A DNA stretch of 64,000 nt from an uncultured Acidobacteriota bacterium. Lineage in GTDB: Bacteria; Acidobacteriota; Terriglobia; Terriglobales; Acidobacteriaceae. Below the pieces are notes generated by a model. It worked only from the letters and a program-made list of their open reading frames with translations, had not been told where the DNA came from and did not search any database. A program made the translations under genes and the position numbers. Of this stretch, positions 35,515-61,697 are shown one piece after another; positions within the stretch are counted from its first letter, which is position 1, and each line of letters opens with the position of its first letter. The stretch spans positions 1 to 64,000 of the forward strand of contig CAILAC010000009.1 of the NCBI GenBank assembly GCA_903832055.1, written 5' to 3'.

Positions 35515-36387
35515 TCAGGCAGCAGCGGCAGGGGCACCGCCGCCCTTGCATGCCTTTTCCATTTCGCTGAACGAAGGCCGAACGTGCGCCGGAATCGCCC
35601 GCCGCCCAATCTCGATTGCAATCAGCGGGGCATTCCCCTTCAAAAAGCTCAGCATGAGTACCCGCAACACCCCCAGGTATTCATTCTGCTCATCGGCGCC
35701 TTTGGTCATGTTGGCCGCCAGCGGACCCACCAGTCCGTAGCACAGCAGAATCCCCAGAAACGTTCCCACCAGCGCCGCCGCCACCTTGTGCCCTACCTCT
35801 TCAGGAGGGCCGCCAATCGCGCCCATCGTAATCACCACGCCCAGCACCGCCGCCACAATGCCCAGCCCCGGCAAGGCATCTGCCACCGTTGATAGGGCCG
35901 AAATCGGTGCGCCGACCCCGTGATGGTGCACCTCCATGTCCCGTTCCATCATTTGGTCCATGTCAAAGGGATCCACGCCGCCGGTAATCGCCATGCGCAG
36001 CGTGTCGCAGACAAAGTCCATCACGTGATGGTCTTTCAGAAACGCTGGATATTTCTTGAAAATAGCGCTCTCCTTCGGCTTCTCCACATCGTTTTCAACC
36101 GAAAGAAGCCCCTCTTTACGCACCTTGTTCAGGAATTCGAACATCATTTTCAGCGTGTCAAGATACCGCGCCTTGCTGAATGGCGAGGGTTTCAGCACCC
36201 CCAGCACTCCCCCTACCATCGCTTTGATAATGTGCATCGGGTTGGCGATGAAGAGCGTGCCCAGCGCTGCGCCGCCGATGATAATCAGCTCCGCCGGCTG
36301 CACCAGCACCAGCAAGTTGCCCTTTTCCATCAGGTATCCAGCTACAATCGCGCCGAAAACCACGACGATGCCTATAATTGCGAACAT
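35515..36387 (-). CDS. motA: Flagellar motor stator protein MotA-like
   Basis: About 290 residues from the ATG at 36387 (FAIIGIVVVFGAIVAGYLMEKGNL), the usual MotA start; longer frames from 36555 overlap the upstream gene in another frame. It has four membrane helices in 2+2 arrangement, with a cytoplasmic loop (LKMMFEFLNKVRKEGLL, HHVMDFVCDTLRMAITGGVDP) and the conserved helix 3 (ADALPGLGIVAAVLGVVITMGAIGG), whose Pro is used in torque generation. With MotB it forms the ion-driven stator. Its start codon lies inside the end of the PAS-GGDEF gene, so the three are co-translated. No other flagellar genes occur in the window. Confidence 0.9.
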   Translation of the reverse strand: MFAIIGIVVVFGAIVAGYLMEKGNLLVLVQPAELIIIGGAALGTLFIANPMHIIKAMVGGVLGVLKPSPFSKARYLDTLKMMFEFLNKVRKEGLLSVENDVEKPKESAIFKKYPAFLKDHHVMDFVCDTLRMAITGGVDPFDMDQMMERDMEVHHHGVGAPISALSTVADALPGLGIVAAVLGVVITMGAIGGPPEEVGHKVAAALVGTFLGILLCYGLVGPLAANMTKGADEQNEYLGVLRVLMLSFLKGNAPLIAIEIGRRAIPAHVRPSFSEMEKACKGGGAPAAAA

Positions 36388-37295
36388 TCCTGCCCCCTGG
36401 TTCCTGGAATTTCTCTCGTTGTCGCCTGGTTGCCGCCTGCATACCGGCTCGTTTCCATCAACTTCTGGGCGCGCTTGAGCAGGCAGCCAAGCTTCTCGTT
36501 CGCTTCTGCCTGGGCAGCACCTACGCTTACCGTCAGGCTCGTCCGGTCGCCCCACCAGCGAAAATCAGCCGTCCGCGCCAGCGCGCCAACCCGCTGCGCA
36601 TGCGCATCCATCATCTCCAGCGTGCGCTCATGGCACAGCACCAGAAACTCGTTGCTCCCCCACCGCCCCAGAATCTCCGTCGGCCGTAGCGCATGCACCA
36701 GTGTCCGTTCCACGATCTGCATCATCGCCTCAGCCGCGTCCCGCCCATGAGTCCGGCGCAGATGCGCCGCCTGATCCACGGTGATCCAGAGCAACCCAAA
36801 CGGCACACCATCCTGATTCCACTCCTGAAAGGCCTCATCCAGCCGGTCTTCCATATCGGCCTGGCTATGTTCCAGCTGGTTGTCCAGCTCGCTGTCTTCG
36901 CTGTTTTCGCCGTGCGGCAGCGCATCTAATTCATCGATGATGTGAAAGCGCAGCAATGTGCCAAACCGCTTCCCAATCGCATCCCGCAGCGGCGTGCGCC
37001 GCAGCATCGCCGGCAGAGTATGCCCCCGCTGGTGCAGCAGGTGCACCGGAACCGGCCTCGACGCCGCTCTCAGATTGTGTGATGAGACAGGATGCGGATC
37101 CACCTGATACAGCTCCGGGGGCAGGCTGCGCGAAAGCATCTCCGCGCCCAGGTAACCGGTAATCTCGGTCGCCGCATGGTTCCAAAGCAGCACATGCGCG
37201 TCAACGTCGACCACGACGATGCCTTCGTCAAAGGCCTCAAAAGCAGCCTCCAGAATTTCCGCGTAATGATCGACAACGCCCTCAGGCTCCGCCAT
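36372..37295 (-). CDS. PAS domain protein with degenerate GGDEF domain
   Basis: A 307-residue cytoplasmic protein. Residues about 10-130 are a PAS sensor (FEAFDEGIVVVDVDAHVLLWNHAATEITGYLGAEML). Residues about 150-290 are a diguanylate-cyclase-like fold (FGLLWITVDQAAHLRRTHGRDAAEAMMQIVERTL, LTVSVGAAQAEANEKLGCLLKRAQKLM). The signature loop reads GRWGSNEFLVL instead of R-x-GGDEF, changing the second Gly and the catalytic Asp. It may bind GTP or c-di-GMP without making it. The gene overlaps motA by 16 bp and heads the motA-motB operon, so a role in tuning the stator is a fair inference. Confidence 0.78.
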   Translation of the reverse strand: MAEPEGVVDHYAEILEAAFEAFDEGIVVVDVDAHVLLWNHAATEITGYLGAEMLSRSLPPELYQVDPHPVSSHNLRAASRPVPVHLLHQRGHTLPAMLRRTPLRDAIGKRFGTLLRFHIIDELDALPHGENSEDSELDNQLEHSQADMEDRLDEAFQEWNQDGVPFGLLWITVDQAAHLRRTHGRDAAEAMMQIVERTLVHALRPTEILGRWGSNEFLVLCHERTLEMMDAHAQRVGALARTADFRWWGDRTSLTVSVGAAQAEANEKLGCLLKRAQKLMETSRYAGGNQATTREIPGTRGQECSQL

Positions 37296-37581: not shown

Positions 37582-39021
37582 TCAGGCCGACGCCTGCGGC
37601 AGCCGCACCACAAAGCGCGTCGAACCCGGCTTCGAATCAACATCGATCTGCCCGCCAAAGCCCTGCGTCACCAGGCGCTGCACAATCTCCAGCCCCAGCC
37701 CCGTCCCCTGGCCAACCGGCTTGGTCGTGAAGAACGGATCAAAGATCTTCGACTTGAGCTCTTCAGGAATTCCGCTGCCCTGATCCGACACGCTCACCGC
37801 CAAGAAGCCGGGCTCGCTCCACGTGCGAACCTCAATTTCACCGCCCTCAGGCGACGCGTCAATGGCGTTGTCAATCAGGTTCGTCCACACCTGGCTGACG
37901 GCCACGCCCGTGGTGCGAAGGTTGGGCTGCGCAGCGTCAAAGTGCTTCACCACCTGAATCTGCCGCTGCCTCAGCTTGTGCCCCATTATCGTCAGCGTGC
38001 TTTGAATGCTGTCATGCACATCCACTTCGCGCATCGTGCAGCGGTCGTCGTAAGCAAACTTTTTCACCGCCATCACCAGGTCAGAGACCCGCGCGATGCT
38101 CTGTTCGATCGCGTCCACCAGGCTCACGCTCGAAACCAGCGATTCCAGCCAGTTCAGCGCATCCGACAGTCCGCTGCCGCCAAACGCCGCACGCGTGCAC
38201 TCCAGTTCGCGCGTGTCCAGCCCGATTCCCACCAGGGTAGGCGCAATTTGGTATGCGTTCTCAACGCCGGAGGACTCCAGCCACTCGGCCATCGCTTCTT
38301 CTGCGTCCGCTTGCTCCAGCGAGCCCATCGCCGCTGTCCGCGCGTGGGTAATGGCGTCCTTTTGCAGGTCGCGCATGCAGGCAATTTGCTCCGGTGTATT
38401 CTCGCGATCGCAGAAGCGCAGGCTCAAATCCTGCAACCGCAGCAGATTTGCCCGCAACTGAGACGCAGCCCGCTTTGCCGCCGAGCCCGGATTATGCAAC
38501 TCGTGCATCAGCCCCGCTGCCAGGGTGCCAAGCGAAATCAGCTTCTCACGGTGCGCAGCTTCTGCCTGGTAAGTCTGTAGACGCTGCGCCATGTGCGAGA
38601 GCACCGCCTTGCGCACGCTGGGGCAGCAGGACATCAAATTCCAGAAGTTCTCTTCAGAAAATCGCAGCAGCACAGAGGGCATCGTCGATTTCACCAGCAT
38701 GCTCGGTGATTTGCCCGCAAGTAAAACGACCTCGCCAAAGGTTTCGCCCTGATGTGCCATGCCGATGCGCGTCAGCGAACCATCCTTCTCGACGCGGTTG
38801 GCTAAAACCTCGCCCTCCAGCATCACCCAGTACGCCCGTACAGGATTCGCCGGATCGAGCACAATTCCGTCGGCAGGCAAATGGATCAGCTCCACCTCGT
38901 CCAATCCGCAGAACTGGTCGGGCGTCACCCCGGCAAAGACGGCCACCTTGCTCAACGCCTCGGCATAGTTGCCGAGCGAGACCGTTTCGATGCTGGTTTC
39001 CTGCACTTCGCCCATTGCCAT
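37582..39021 (-). CDS. Sensor histidine kinase with N-terminal cyclic-nucleotide-binding domain
   Basis: A 479-residue soluble kinase. Residues about 25-145 are a CRP/cNMP-binding fold (IVLDPANPVRAYWVMLEGEVLANR, GETFGEVVLLAGKSPSM). H173 in LAAGLMHELHNPGSAAKRA is the phosphoacceptor. A long helical insert follows, then the HATPase domain: N box NLIDNAIDASPEGG, G1 DQGSGIPEELKSKIFDPFFTTK, G2 GQGTGLGLEIVQRL. No membrane segment, so it senses an internal signal; the cNMP pocket may bind cyclic nucleotide or another ligand. It lies 36 bp downstream of the receiver-oxidoreductase gene and is surely its partner. Confidence 0.88.
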   Translation of the reverse strand: MAMGEVQETSIETVSLGNYAEALSKVAVFAGVTPDQFCGLDEVELIHLPADGIVLDPANPVRAYWVMLEGEVLANRVEKDGSLTRIGMAHQGETFGEVVLLAGKSPSMLVKSTMPSVLLRFSEENFWNLMSCCPSVRKAVLSHMAQRLQTYQAEAAHREKLISLGTLAAGLMHELHNPGSAAKRAASQLRANLLRLQDLSLRFCDRENTPEQIACMRDLQKDAITHARTAAMGSLEQADAEEAMAEWLESSGVENAYQIAPTLVGIGLDTRELECTRAAFGGSGLSDALNWLESLVSSVSLVDAIEQSIARVSDLVMAVKKFAYDDRCTMREVDVHDSIQSTLTIMGHKLRQRQIQVVKHFDAAQPNLRTTGVAVSQVWTNLIDNAIDASPEGGEIEVRTWSEPGFLAVSVSDQGSGIPEELKSKIFDPFFTTKPVGQGTGLGLEIVQRLVTQGFGGQIDVDSKPGSTRFVVRLPQASA

Positions 39022-39057
39022 TCGACCGTTCTACCTCGCCGTCAATCTCGATTCAAC

Positions 39058-40710
39058 TCAGAAGCTCGCCAGATACTGGTGAGCAAACTGCACCGCAATT
39101 GAACCTTCCCCTACCGCAGAAGCCGCCCGCTTCACTGATCCGTGCCGCACGTCTCCCGCCACAAAAACCCCGGGAATACTGGTCTCCAGCAGAAAAGGGT
39201 CGCGCGCCTGCTTCCATATGCCCGCAAACTTTGCCGACGCCTTCAGCTCCGGCCCGGCCAGGATGAATCCCTTCTCATCCCGCAATACCGCATCCGGCAA
39301 CCACTCTGTCCTCGGTACAGCTCCGATGAATACAAACAGCGAAGCTGCCTCGCGCACTGATTCGCCCGCAGGTCCACCAATCCGCAAAGCTTCCAGATGT
39401 TCCTCGCCCATCGCTTCCAAAACCTGCGTGTTGGGCTCAACCACTATATTGGATGTGCGTTCTATCTCATCGATTAAGTATTTCGACATGCTGGCCTCTA
39501 AACCGCTCGCCCGGACCAGCATGGTTACCTTGCAGGCAAATTTGGCAAAGTGCAGAGCCGCCTGTCCGGCGGAATTTGCCCCGCCGACAATGTAGACTTC
39601 CTCGTCCCTGCACGCCGCTGCCTCTACCAGCGCTGCGCCGTAGTAGATGCCGCGCCCGGTCAGCTTGTCGGCCCCCGGAATCTCAAGCCGCCGGTACTGC
39701 ACACCCGTTGCCAGCAACAGCACGTGGCTTGAAACCTCGCGCCCATCCGCCAGCACCACAAACCTGTACTGCCCGTCGATCCGCAGCCCTACCGCCCGCT
39801 GCACCAGGAACTCCGCGCCAAAACGCACGCCCTGCATGTGTGCCCGGCGTCCCAGATCGGCCCCGGTAATGCCCGCCGGAAAACCCAGGTAATTCTCAAT
39901 GAGCGATGACGATCCGGCCTGCCCGCCTGGGGCCATGGGCTCGATTACCAGCGTCTTCAACCCCTCTGAAGCGCCGTAAACCGCCGCCGCCAGCCCCGCT
40001 GGACCTGCGCCGATCACCACCATGTCATAAAAGTCCTGCGCCGCCTGGGTTCGCAGCCCAACACGCGCCGCCAGCACATCGGTTTCAGGATTCACCAGCG
40101 CGCTGCCGTCGGCAAACAGCACCACCGGCAGCACTTCCGGGTCCAGCGAACGCTCCTGCAGCAGCGTCCGCGCATCGTCGCTCGCCGCCGCGTCAAGCCA
40201 CCGGTACGGCACGTGATTCCGCGACAGAAAACTCCGCAACTGATGGTCCCTGAGCGACCAGCGGTGCCCGATGACCCGCAGCCCTTCAAACCGTGGCTGA
40301 TACCCTGAATTCCAATCGGCCAGCAGGTCGTCCAGCACCGGATACAGCTTTTCCTCTGGCGGATCCCATGGCTTGGTCAGATAGTAGTGAATGCGCGCCG
40401 TGTTGATTGCCCGGATAGCCGCTTCGGTATCGGCATACGCTGTCAGCAGCACGCGCCGCGCTTCCGGGTAAATCGCCTGCGCCGCCTCCAGAAACTCGAC
40501 GCCCGTCATCCCCGGCATCCGCTGGTCGCTCAGCAGCAGCGCCACGGCCTCTTCGCGCACCTTTAATTGCCGCAGGGTGTCCAGCGCCGCTTGCCCGCTG
40601 CCCGCTCGCAGAACCCGATACGTGGCGCCATACTTGCGGCGCAGATCCTGCACTACGGCCTCAAGCACGCTGATGTCGTCGTCAATTGCAAATAGAATAG
40701 GGCGGCTCAT
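39058..40710 (-). CDS. Response regulator receiver fused to a thioredoxin-reductase-like flavoprotein
   Basis: A 550-residue fusion. Residues 1-125 are an intact receiver: acidic pair in FAIDDD, phosphoacceptor D62 in LLLSDQRMP, Thr in LLTAYAD, Lys in YLTKPW. Residues about 140-225 form a thioredoxin-fold-like linker. Residues about 228-550 are a two-dinucleotide-domain oxidoreductase (VVIGAGPAGLAAAVYGASEG for FAD, YIVGGANSAGQAALHFAKFA for NAD(P), GVFVAGDVRHGSVKRAASAVGEGS). The CxxC redox pair of thioredoxin reductase is missing (YYGAALVEAAAC in its place). Phosphorylation by the adjacent kinase may gate electron transfer. AGGCAGGT precedes the ATG. Confidence 0.88.
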   Translation of the reverse strand: MSRPILFAIDDDISVLEAVVQDLRRKYGATYRVLRAGSGQAALDTLRQLKVREEAVALLLSDQRMPGMTGVEFLEAAQAIYPEARRVLLTAYADTEAAIRAINTARIHYYLTKPWDPPEEKLYPVLDDLLADWNSGYQPRFEGLRVIGHRWSLRDHQLRSFLSRNHVPYRWLDAAASDDARTLLQERSLDPEVLPVVLFADGSALVNPETDVLAARVGLRTQAAQDFYDMVVIGAGPAGLAAAVYGASEGLKTLVIEPMAPGGQAGSSSLIENYLGFPAGITGADLGRRAHMQGVRFGAEFLVQRAVGLRIDGQYRFVVLADGREVSSHVLLLATGVQYRRLEIPGADKLTGRGIYYGAALVEAAACRDEEVYIVGGANSAGQAALHFAKFACKVTMLVRASGLEASMSKYLIDEIERTSNIVVEPNTQVLEAMGEEHLEALRIGGPAGESVREAASLFVFIGAVPRTEWLPDAVLRDEKGFILAGPELKASAKFAGIWKQARDPFLLETSIPGVFVAGDVRHGSVKRAASAVGEGSIAVQFAHQYLASF

Positions 40711-41151: not shown

Positions 41152-41868
41152 ATGAACAAAATTATTTTGGCTGATTCAGAGGCTATTTTTCGTGCGGGTG
41201 CGGCCAAGGTCCTGGCTTTGAATGACGACCTCCGCATCATCGCCCAGTGTTCTGACACCGAACGCATGATGCATGCCGTCACGACCTTTCCCAACGCAGT
41301 CGTAATCTTCGCGTCCGCGCTTAAACCAGAGCTGAATCGCCTGCGAACCCTGCTTGACACCATGGGCAGCCGGGGCATTGTCATCGTCGAGAACGGTGAG
41401 TCCGCAGCGCCGTTCCTCCAGCATGGTTTTCGCGGCGTCATCTTTCGCAATACCTCAGGCTCAGCGCTTGCTGAATGCGTCCGCAAAGTAGCTGCCGGAG
41501 AAACCTGGCAACCTCTGCACTCAGCCGCCCCGCATCCCATTGATGAGGATATGGTCGGCACACGCGTACGCGATCGGCTCACGCCAAAGGAAATGCGTAT
41601 CGTTGCATTGATCGTCCAGGGCTGCAAAAATCGCGAGATCGCCACCCGCCTCAAGACCACCGAGCAGGTCATCAAAAACTATCTGCGATCCATCTATGAC
41701 AAGACCGGCGTTGGCGATCGCCTCGAACTTGCTCTCTTCACACTGCATCACCGGGTCCTGGCAGAGGCTGCCGCAGATGTCGGAGACCGCATCGACGCCG
41801 AAGAGCAGTCCAATAACCCTGCGGCGGTCGCAAACATCGTTCAACAATTACCCCGCACTGGAACCTAG
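41152..41868 (+). CDS. LuxR/NarL-type regulator with a receiver lacking its phosphoacceptor Asp
   Basis: A 238-residue protein. Residues 1-120 have the receiver fold (KIILADSEAIFRAGAAKVLALNDDLRIIAQCSD). The strand that should end in the phosphorylated Asp reads AVVIFASALKP, with Ala in its place. The acidic pocket is also poor. Residues about 138-205 are a LuxR helix-turn-helix (RLTPKEMRIVALIVQGCKNREIATRLKTTEQVIKNYLRSIYDKTGVGDRLELALF). It is therefore an atypical response regulator, probably controlled by a ligand, dimerisation or expression level. GAGGGAAAG precedes the ATG. Confidence 0.82.
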   Translation: MNKIILADSEAIFRAGAAKVLALNDDLRIIAQCSDTERMMHAVTTFPNAVVIFASALKPELNRLRTLLDTMGSRGIVIVENGESAAPFLQHGFRGVIFRNTSGSALAECVRKVAAGETWQPLHSAAPHPIDEDMVGTRVRDRLTPKEMRIVALIVQGCKNREIATRLKTTEQVIKNYLRSIYDKTGVGDRLELALFTLHHRVLAEAAADVGDRIDAEEQSNNPAAVANIVQQLPRTGT

Positions 41869-60660: not shown

Positions 60661-60764
60661 CTTATCCTCAACCAGCTGATTCCTGCCGGCCTGAGGCGGC
60701 CGACCGAGCGTCGGCTCCCGTACAATCAGGTAGTCAGTCGAAAATGATTGGGAAAGAAACAATA

Positions 60765-61697
60765 ATGTCTGAAATTCGCGATACGGTCATTCTGGGTTCG
60801 GGATGCGCTGGCCTGACGGCGGCGATTTACACGGCCCGCGCCAACCTCAAGCCGCTTGTTCTGGAGGGTCACGAACCCGGAGGGCAGCTCTCGATTACCA
60901 CCCTGGTTGAGAACTTTCCCGGCTGGCCGGAAGGCATCCAGGGCCCGGAACTGATTGAAAACATGAAGAAGCAGGCCTCCCGCTTTGGAGCAGAATTCAA
61001 GATGGGCCACCTCGTGTCAGTAGACCTGAGCGTCCATCCCTTCAAGCTGAAGACTTCGCTTGGTGAAATCTGCACAAGGACTCTGATCATCGCCTCCGGT
61101 GCCAGCGCGCGCTGGCTGGGTCTGCCCAGTGAGCAGGCGCTTATCGGCCACGGCGTTTCAAGCTGCGCCACCTGCGATGGATTCTTCTTCAATGGCCATG
61201 ACATTGCCGTGGTCGGCGGCGGAGATACGGCCATGGAAGAGGCTTTGTTTCTCACCCGCTTCGCCACCAAGGTCTATCTGCTGCACCGGCGCGAAAGCTT
61301 CCGGGCTTCCAAGGTCATGATGGAGCGTGTCGTGGCCCACCCAAAGATTGAAATCATGACCAATACGGTCGTCGAAGAAGTGCTTGGCATCGAGGAGAAG
61401 TCGGTCCGCGGCCTGCATATTCGCAATGTGAAGACTGGAGACAAGTCGGTCCTTCCTGTCACCGGATTCTTCCTCGGCATTGGTCACGAACCGAACGCAA
61501 AAATGTTTGCCGGTCAAATTGATCTTGATGAAGACGGGTACATCCGGACTACCGACAATGTGCTGACCAGGGTCCCCGGCGTTTTTGCCTGCGGAGATGT
61601 GCAGGACCGCCGCTACCGCCAGGCGATTACCGCCGCCGGAACCGGCTGCATGGCGGCTCTCGAGGCAGAAAAGTACCTGGAGAACCACGGTCACTAA
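60765..61697 (+). CDS. trxB: Thioredoxin-disulfide reductase
   Basis: About 310 residues from the ATG at 60765 (GGGAAAG upstream; an ATG at 60744 is also in frame). FAD site VILGSGCAGLTAAIYTARANL, GQLSITTLVENFPGWPEGIQGPEL, redox pair CATC (SSCATCDGFFF), NADPH site IAVVGGGDTAMEEALFLTRFATKVYLLHRRESFRAS, and the closing VFACGDVQDRRYRQAITAAGTGCMAALEAEKYL are all intact. It reduces thioredoxin with NADPH in the cytoplasm. It contrasts with the receiver-fused relative at 39058, which lacks the CxxC. Confidence 0.96.
   Translation: MSEIRDTVILGSGCAGLTAAIYTARANLKPLVLEGHEPGGQLSITTLVENFPGWPEGIQGPELIENMKKQASRFGAEFKMGHLVSVDLSVHPFKLKTSLGEICTRTLIIASGASARWLGLPSEQALIGHGVSSCATCDGFFFNGHDIAVVGGGDTAMEEALFLTRFATKVYLLHRRESFRASKVMMERVVAHPKIEIMTNTVVEEVLGIEEKSVRGLHIRNVKTGDKSVLPVTGFFLGIGHEPNAKMFAGQIDLDEDGYIRTTDNVLTRVPGVFACGDVQDRRYRQAITAAGTGCMAALEAEKYLENHGH

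Follow-up and report, generated by a model that had tools for sequence, protein, structure and literature searches.

Does a phosphorelay end here in an enzyme rather than in a DNA-binding domain, and where would the electrons of such an enzyme go? The question is raised by two adjoining genes on the minus strand of a 64,000-nucleotide stretch of DNA, hereafter the window (positions 1 to 64,000 of contig CAILAC010000009.1, our C9), from the 4.57 Mb genome of an uncultured Acidobacteriota bacterium (assembly GCA_903832055.1). The first gene encodes a response regulator (RR) in which a receiver domain (REC) is joined to a glutaredoxin-like (Grx-like) linker and to a flavoprotein resembling thioredoxin reductase (TrxR); the second follows after 36 nt and encodes a histidine kinase (HK) carrying a domain of the cyclic nucleotide monophosphate (cNMP)-binding fold. 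Both open reading frames (ORFs) lie where a preliminary description of this DNA had placed them, with the kinase next to the fusion of receiver and flavoenzyme. On the evidence of gene order and residue conservation, HK and RR are a conserved two-gene system, and we put the probability that they form a dedicated two-component pair with the flavin enzyme as its output, gated by phosphorylation, at somewhat above one half (about 0.55).

The pairing is documented by its spread. Among the matches listed, those most similar to RR (64-79% identity) are from Acidobacteriota, and record titles place others, down to 50%, in Cyanobacteriota, Actinomycetota, Chloroflexota, Bacteroidota, Pseudomonadota, Gemmatimonadota and further phyla, about ten altogether; because kinase linkage is mostly kept across this range of 50-79%, the pair does not look like a chance neighbourhood. 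Residues and linkage were counted at 80 loci, which are the best of 580 RR relatives and therefore over-represent near kin; with the window they give 81 aligned RR sequences, and the window HK and 71 locus kinases give 72 kinase sequences. When a kinase is accepted at more than 180 bits in the fetched flank, it is found near RR at 71 of the 80 loci, downstream at 44 and upstream at 25 on the same strand, and on the opposite strand at two. Same-strand gaps are shorter than 200 nt except at L101 (210), L090 (747) and L056 (2474 nt), some of them being negative where the mechanically assigned ORF start lies too early. A survey of co-occurrence, which the preliminary description had proposed as a check, showed the same linkage at the level of genomes. 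Among 149 Acidobacteriota genomes, 28 contain the Grx-like and TrxR-like module (approximately RR residues 143-548) and 18 contain full-length REC proteins, 19 in number, each with the kinase 28-268 nt away (19/19); at a threshold of E 1e-35 the kinase was found in only four of the 131 remaining genomes. Among 198 Bacteroidota genomes, 32 contain the module. Of their 28 REC proteins, 26 have the kinase no more than 300 nt away (one of them divergent), another has it at 2057 nt, and the last has it on another contig only.

The residues predicted to serve phosphotransfer are kept with the same constancy. The receiver, said in the preliminary description to be intact, is so: Response_reg matches residues 8-118 with 54.1 bits (Pfam cut-off 30.2), and the acidic pair, phosphoacceptor aspartate, threonine and lysine are all present, D11, D62, T90 and K113 being identical in 81/81 aligned sequences and D12 in 79/81. 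Sequence entropy, calculated from 40 non-redundant rows out of the 81 and thus for this family alone, is lowest among the receiver helices measured for alpha4 (0.74 bits) and the beta5-alpha5 region (0.78 bits), against 1.20-1.76 bits for alpha1-alpha3 and 1.09 bits for REC as a whole. In the kinase, the H, N, G1, F and G2 boxes are all recognizable: H173, E174, N177, P178, N381, D413, G415, G417, F430, G439, G441 and G443 are invariant in the 72 kinases, and N385 is found in 71 of them, the remaining one having an X. The catalytic domain is conventional (HATPase_c, PF02518, 92.4 bits at 374-477; structural match to ThkA, 3a0t, Z 22.1 over 328-479). AlphaFold2 (AF2) models, built from 37 sequences for RR and 32 for HK, reach a predicted local distance difference test (pLDDT) of 86.7 and a predicted template modelling score (pTM) of 0.71 for RR, and 85.9 and 0.58 for HK. 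The HK model consists of a long helix with H173 (134-205), an insert (210-279), a second helix (282-327) and a normal catalytic domain; by eye, no helix seems left over that could cross a membrane. L120:1334-2905 (+) also speaks for a dedicated pair: it is a degenerate receiver, with D62 replaced, joined directly to a TrxR-like enzyme without the Grx-like domain, and its genome has no HK match at E 1e-35.

What the kinase senses is a different matter. The preliminary description had proposed a cNMP-type sensor, and as far as the fold is concerned this holds, since the cNMP_binding family (PF00027) matches residues 47-130 with 30.3 bits (cut-off 27.5). The ligand is where the proposal weakens, because the canonical phosphate-binding arginine of the cassette is absent from the window HK and is clear in only three of the 72 kinases (L065, L069 and L087, by a simple pattern that matched six, from which L041, L070 and L079 were discounted by eye). 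Judged by this cassette, the domain is probably no longer a binder of cyclic nucleotides here. The same genome has a paralogue of the kinase (L145:5593-7062, +; 28% identity over 22-476).

In RR, Pyr_redox_2 matches residues 228-536 with 117 bits (Pfam cut-off 26.1), and the residues of the FAD and NAD(P) motifs that we counted (G234, G236, G239, G519, D520, G376, N379, S380 and R400) are present in 81/81 sequences. The lack of the TrxR CxxC, noted in the preliminary description together with the two-domain FAD/NAD(P) architecture, extends to all the aligned sequences: there is no cysteine at 356-363, the range of the CxxC columns, in any of the 81, while G358 is conserved in all. The only mostly-cysteine column is 367; the runner-up, 328, has cysteine in 35/81, and the CxxC pairs seen at 328 (6/81) and at 426 (1/81) are neither at the TrxR site nor conserved. 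RR remains below the NCBIfam cut-offs for TrxB (TIGR01292, 207.4 versus 343.45 bits) and AhpF (TIGR03140, 135.3 versus 502.9 bits). The modelled two-domain fold matches Lactococcus lactis TrxR better in its flavin-reducing form (5mh4; Z 34.0, root-mean-square deviation (rmsd) 2.0, 299 residues aligned) than in its flavin-oxidising form (5mjk; Z 28.5, rmsd 7.9), a modelled conformer that would suit a hydride passing from NAD(P)H to FAD with no dithiol in between. The possibility that this is the housekeeping TrxR of the cell was rejected, since the window also encodes, 20 kb from the Cys-less enzyme, a canonical thioredoxin reductase that carries CATC (60744-61697, +).

The preliminary description had also suggested that the thioredoxin-fold-like linker could itself accept the electrons. 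Its cysteine content excludes it as a dithiol acceptor, since residues 143-219 contain no CxxC in any of the 81 sequences, the CPxC of glutaredoxins being absent; some cysteine occurs there in 37/81 but never as CxxC, and a single one at 149-158 occurs in two (L066 and L097). The tentative assignment of the linker comes from its alignment, at the same place, with the glutaredoxin of a related protein, L131 (PF00462, 35.5 bits, cut-off 22.9), and from P195, conserved in 81/81; a Pfam search with the whole-length window RR gave no glutaredoxin match. It is the most variable part of RR (1.74 bits). L131:1883-3154 (-), which has no regulatory domain, joins a CPDC-bearing glutaredoxin to a TrxR that carries CATC, and the ancestor of the module may have resembled it. 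Because this relative has both sites, the most economical reading of the sequences is that an active Grx-TrxR fusion lost both of its dithiol sites.

The case for the enzyme as the output would rest mainly on the fact that one enzyme family is found either on a cNMP-fold domain or on a receiver served by a kinase that itself carries one. The module occurs behind a cNMP-fold domain that replaces REC, for example in L110 and L119 (PF00027, 70.5 and 48.5 bits), with further cases, and also without such a domain (L107 and L124). A profile of the HK domains gives 36-78 bits for 13 cNMP domains of fused enzymes; among other proteins of the genome it gives 31 and 39 bits for the cNMP proteins L002 and L003, 80 for the kinase paralogue L006, and 117 for the two-domain cNMP protein L001, whose best single domain scores 60, and on these scores we claim no special kinship between the HK domain and those of the fused enzymes. 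No kinase is annotated near the cNMP-fused enzyme in the three plasmid records examined that name it as such, although PLSDB gene tables do not list every gene. When 37 TrxR parts were placed in a tree, the 35 without CxxC, REC- and cNMP-fused alike, formed one branch (support 100/99, length 1.03), separate from L131 and from the window's own canonical TrxR. Within it the rows group by input, with four cNMP rows drawn beside REC rows. Three changes of label were needed for cNMP in the first tree, one of them an artefact of L122, whose sequence is truncated at a contig end. At least one exchange of input is thus shown. Repeated swapping was not upheld, and we claim only one exchange because, when L122 and the long canonical TrxR are left out, the test does not reject a common origin for all cNMP rows (p-AU 0.437). 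From these comparisons, the enzyme as output appears less firmly supported than the pairing of the two genes.

A further gene often accompanies the module. UBP-type zinc fingers are known mainly from ubiquitin systems. A small protein of this family (zf-UBP, PF02148, 45.1 bits, cut-off 22.7) is encoded next to RR or HK at 17 of the 80 loci. Among the Acidobacteriota, it is found in 20 of 28 genomes with the module and in 9 of 121 others (Fisher test ignoring phylogeny, like those below, 5.6e-12; the total of 29 includes one under the curated cut-off, G072), and outside the family to which the window belongs in 8/15 versus 9/119 (4.7e-5). The Bacteroidota give 21/32 versus 2/166 (2.6e-18) over the curated cut-off, the total of 23 excluding two that fall under it (G201 and G309). 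A scan of whole genomes chosen for 30 of the 80 loci found it in 23, and in 2 of 14 control genomes. It is not obligatory, since 8/28 Acidobacteriota and 11/32 Bacteroidota genomes with the module lack it, and in the window genome it is located away from the pair (C16:182105-182305; locus L129:5106-5372). The structure of one relative has been solved (2ida), under the bare name 'hypothetical protein'. A Rhodococcus plasmid (L110:1-7239) has the gene row dnaK-grpE-dnaJ-cbpM-clpB-trxA-zfUBP-cNMP-fused enzyme, a second (L141) repeats the order dnaJ-cbpM-clpB-trxA-zinc finger-enzyme, and a Streptomyces plasmid (L139) shows the same order with the zinc finger not annotated; Tsukamurella and another Streptomyces have RR-HK-zinc finger, and the neighbours in the remaining plasmid records examined show no shared theme. 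Given this association, we infer that if the enzyme has a dedicated partner it is most likely this zf-UBP protein. More speculative, and in our view distinctly doubtful as a whole, is a general scheme, widespread among bacteria, in which a dithiol-less flavoenzyme with exchangeable inputs (a cNMP-fold domain, or kinase and receiver) would deliver its output, as electrons or as a redox-dependent contact, to this zinc-finger protein. If true, it would amount to a signalling path from flavin to zinc finger driven by a phosphorelay.

For the pair itself, the mechanism that we propose is as follows. The cNMP-fold domain of HK would sense some ligand or partner and set the autophosphorylation of H173, from which the phosphoryl group would pass to D62 of the neighbouring RR. 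The alpha4-beta5-alpha5 face of the receiver and its last helix would then alter how the redox-dead Grx-like domain is arranged with the FAD/NAD(P) core, opening or closing electron flow from NAD(P)H through FAD to a non-dithiol acceptor. In the relatives with a fused cNMP-fold domain, that domain would presumably gate the same enzyme directly. An output through an enzyme instead of a DNA-binding domain, as anticipated in the preliminary description, is backed by the gene linkage, the invariant phospho-residues and the fusion of the same module to a cNMP-fold domain, and that description as a whole is partly supported. Several observations weigh against the mechanism. At 9 of the 80 loci there is no such HK above 180 bits in the fetched flank. 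One of the four Acidobacteriota genomes with a kinase and no full-length REC protein (G121) carries HK beside a REC-less enzyme (L128:2686-3993, -), upstream of which a REC was looked for and not found, although this may be a truncation or an assembly artefact. A single cNMP origin is left standing by the tree test, so that repeated swapping of inputs is not shown; the argument for the enzyme as output needs one exchange only. The argument from the modelled conformer is weak because the flavin-side segments 265-277 and 523-527 have pLDDT <50. Finally, gene linkage is no proof of phosphotransfer or of the direction of control.

Three other explanations can be set against the same evidence. The TrxR-like part could be no catalyst at all but a scaffold or redox reporter that holds FAD and/or NAD(P)H and signals by protein contact, for example with the zf-UBP protein; the loss of both dithiol sites, the association with a zinc-finger gene and the lower conservation of the NAD(P) domain (1.42 bits, versus 0.95 for the FAD domain) are in keeping with this, but strict identity of the counted FAD and NAD(P) motif residues in 81/81 sequences seems more than a scaffold would need, and we consider it rather unlikely. 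Alternatively, the enzyme could still act on thiols and disulfides, with C367 or the cysteines of a partner (a thioredoxin or the zinc finger) in place of CxxC. The presence of C367 in 77/81 and of trxA behind clpB in the gene row of the enzyme on two Rhodococcus plasmids and one Streptomyces plasmid speak for this. Yet C367 is a lone cysteine six residues beyond the old site, it is missing in 4/81 and in the cNMP-fused L108, L109, L123 and L132, and there is no other mostly-cysteine column, all of which makes the explanation improbable.

Signal flow could also run the other way: the flavin domain would sense the redox state, or NAD(P)H, and thereby tune a receiver that serves the kinase as phosphate sink. 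The architecture alone is compatible with this, as are the two such kinases present at each of L045, L046, L052 and L056, but in the three records mentioned above, with their incomplete gene tables, the cNMP-fused enzyme stands without an annotated kinase in its vicinity, which fits an enzyme that is the output, and we regard reversed flow as very improbable. We prefer the phosphorylation-gated flavin enzyme, at the probability given at the outset. The positions of its parts are collected in the table.

Table. Coordinates in the window of the two genes and of their domains and key residues
Feature	Position	Strand	Basis
HK gene, 479 aa	37582..39021	-	ORF and domain search
HK cNMP-fold domain, about residues 15-122, degenerate phosphate-binding cassette	38656..38979	-	PF00027, AF2 model
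H173, predicted phosphorylated His	38503..38505	-	72/72
Four-helix insert between the two DHp helices, residues 210-279	38185..38394	-	AF2 model
Catalytic ATP-binding domain, about residues 331-477	37591..38031	-	PF02518; ThkA match
RR gene, 550 aa: REC, Grx-like domain and TrxR-like flavoprotein	39058..40710	-	ORF and domain search
Receiver domain, residues 4-118	40357..40701	-	PF00072 and AF2 model
D62, predicted phosphoacceptor	40525..40527	-	D in 81/81
Receiver last helix/connector, residues 122-136	40303..40347	-	AF2 model; beta5-alpha5 region 109-136 of low entropy
Grx-like domain without catalytic Cys pair, residues 143-219	40054..40284	-	Alignment to L131 CPDC glutaredoxin; P195
TrxR-like FAD/NAD(P) two-domain enzyme, residues 226-548	39067..40035	-	Domain search, structure match
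Residues 358-361 (GAAL), position of the lost CxxC	39628..39639	-	Alignment to canonical TrxR
E363 (81/81) to C367 (77/81), conserved after the lost CxxC	39610..39624	-	Alignment

Other regulators are encoded on both sides of the pair. At 41152-41868 (+) there is a divergent LuxR-type regulator whose receiver-like part, by eye, lacks the phosphoacceptor aspartate at the expected place (VVIFASAL); many Acidobacteriota loci have a similar gene in the vicinity of RR, in a gene cluster that spans 28 loci and takes in other regulators too. At 36372-37295 (-), between HK and two genes that by eye resemble motA and motB, lies a PAS-GGDEF protein in which WGSNEF replaces GGDEF, and relatives of the PAS-GGDEF, motA- and motB-like genes come after HK in L023, L024 and L030.

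Fusions of this kind are annotated in databases, as the preliminary description had stated: the parts of the literature available to us list 'TrxB' as a class of response regulators (PMC9953108) and mention a fusion of REC with thioredoxin reductase (PMC5847659). The RR of the window is a member of this known class, which likewise combines REC with a domain of the pyridine-nucleotide-disulfide oxidoreductase type. In the table of PMC9953108, the TrxB row and the cNMP_binding row have one entry each, both in the second column. In the parts of those listings that we saw, the cNMP-fold kinase, the cysteine loss, the Grx-like domain and the zinc-finger partner are not discussed. In literature mostly outside subscription journals we found no functional study or worked-out case of the TrxB class, nor a description of the linked cNMP-fold kinase, the double dithiol loss, the two kinds of input or the zinc-finger association. 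Receivers that switch metabolic enzymes appear in censuses, and with about ten phyla represented and the kinase mostly adjacent, a single pair, once purified, could show whether flavin electron transfer can be gated by a phosphorelay, and the recurrent zinc-finger gene offers a definite candidate partner for an enzyme without the usual acceptor site.

Another close system is the 'cyclic nucleotide-binding domain-containing thioredoxin-disulfide reductase' of RefSeq plasmids, which has the homologous Grx-like and CxxC-less module (47-49% identical to RR across some three quarters of its length) and differs in that a cNMP-fold domain replaces REC and that no kinase is annotated nearby. With thioredoxin reductase TrxB (TIGR01292), RR shares the fold and the FAD and NAD(P) motifs but not the CxxC. 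AhpF and NTRC similarly join a TrxR-like core to a thioredoxin-fold domain, which in those enzymes is redox-active, whereas that of RR has no cysteine pair and has a receiver attached. FNR2, a ferredoxin/flavodoxin-NADP reductase of the TrxR type, and YpdA/Bdr, stand-alone enzymes of the TrxR-like fold, also lack the CxxC of the NADP domain. Both match the RR model with lower Z than flavin-reducing TrxRs do, FNR2 (8c16) at Z 27.3 and rmsd 3.4 and YpdA/Bdr (7a7b) at Z 26.4.

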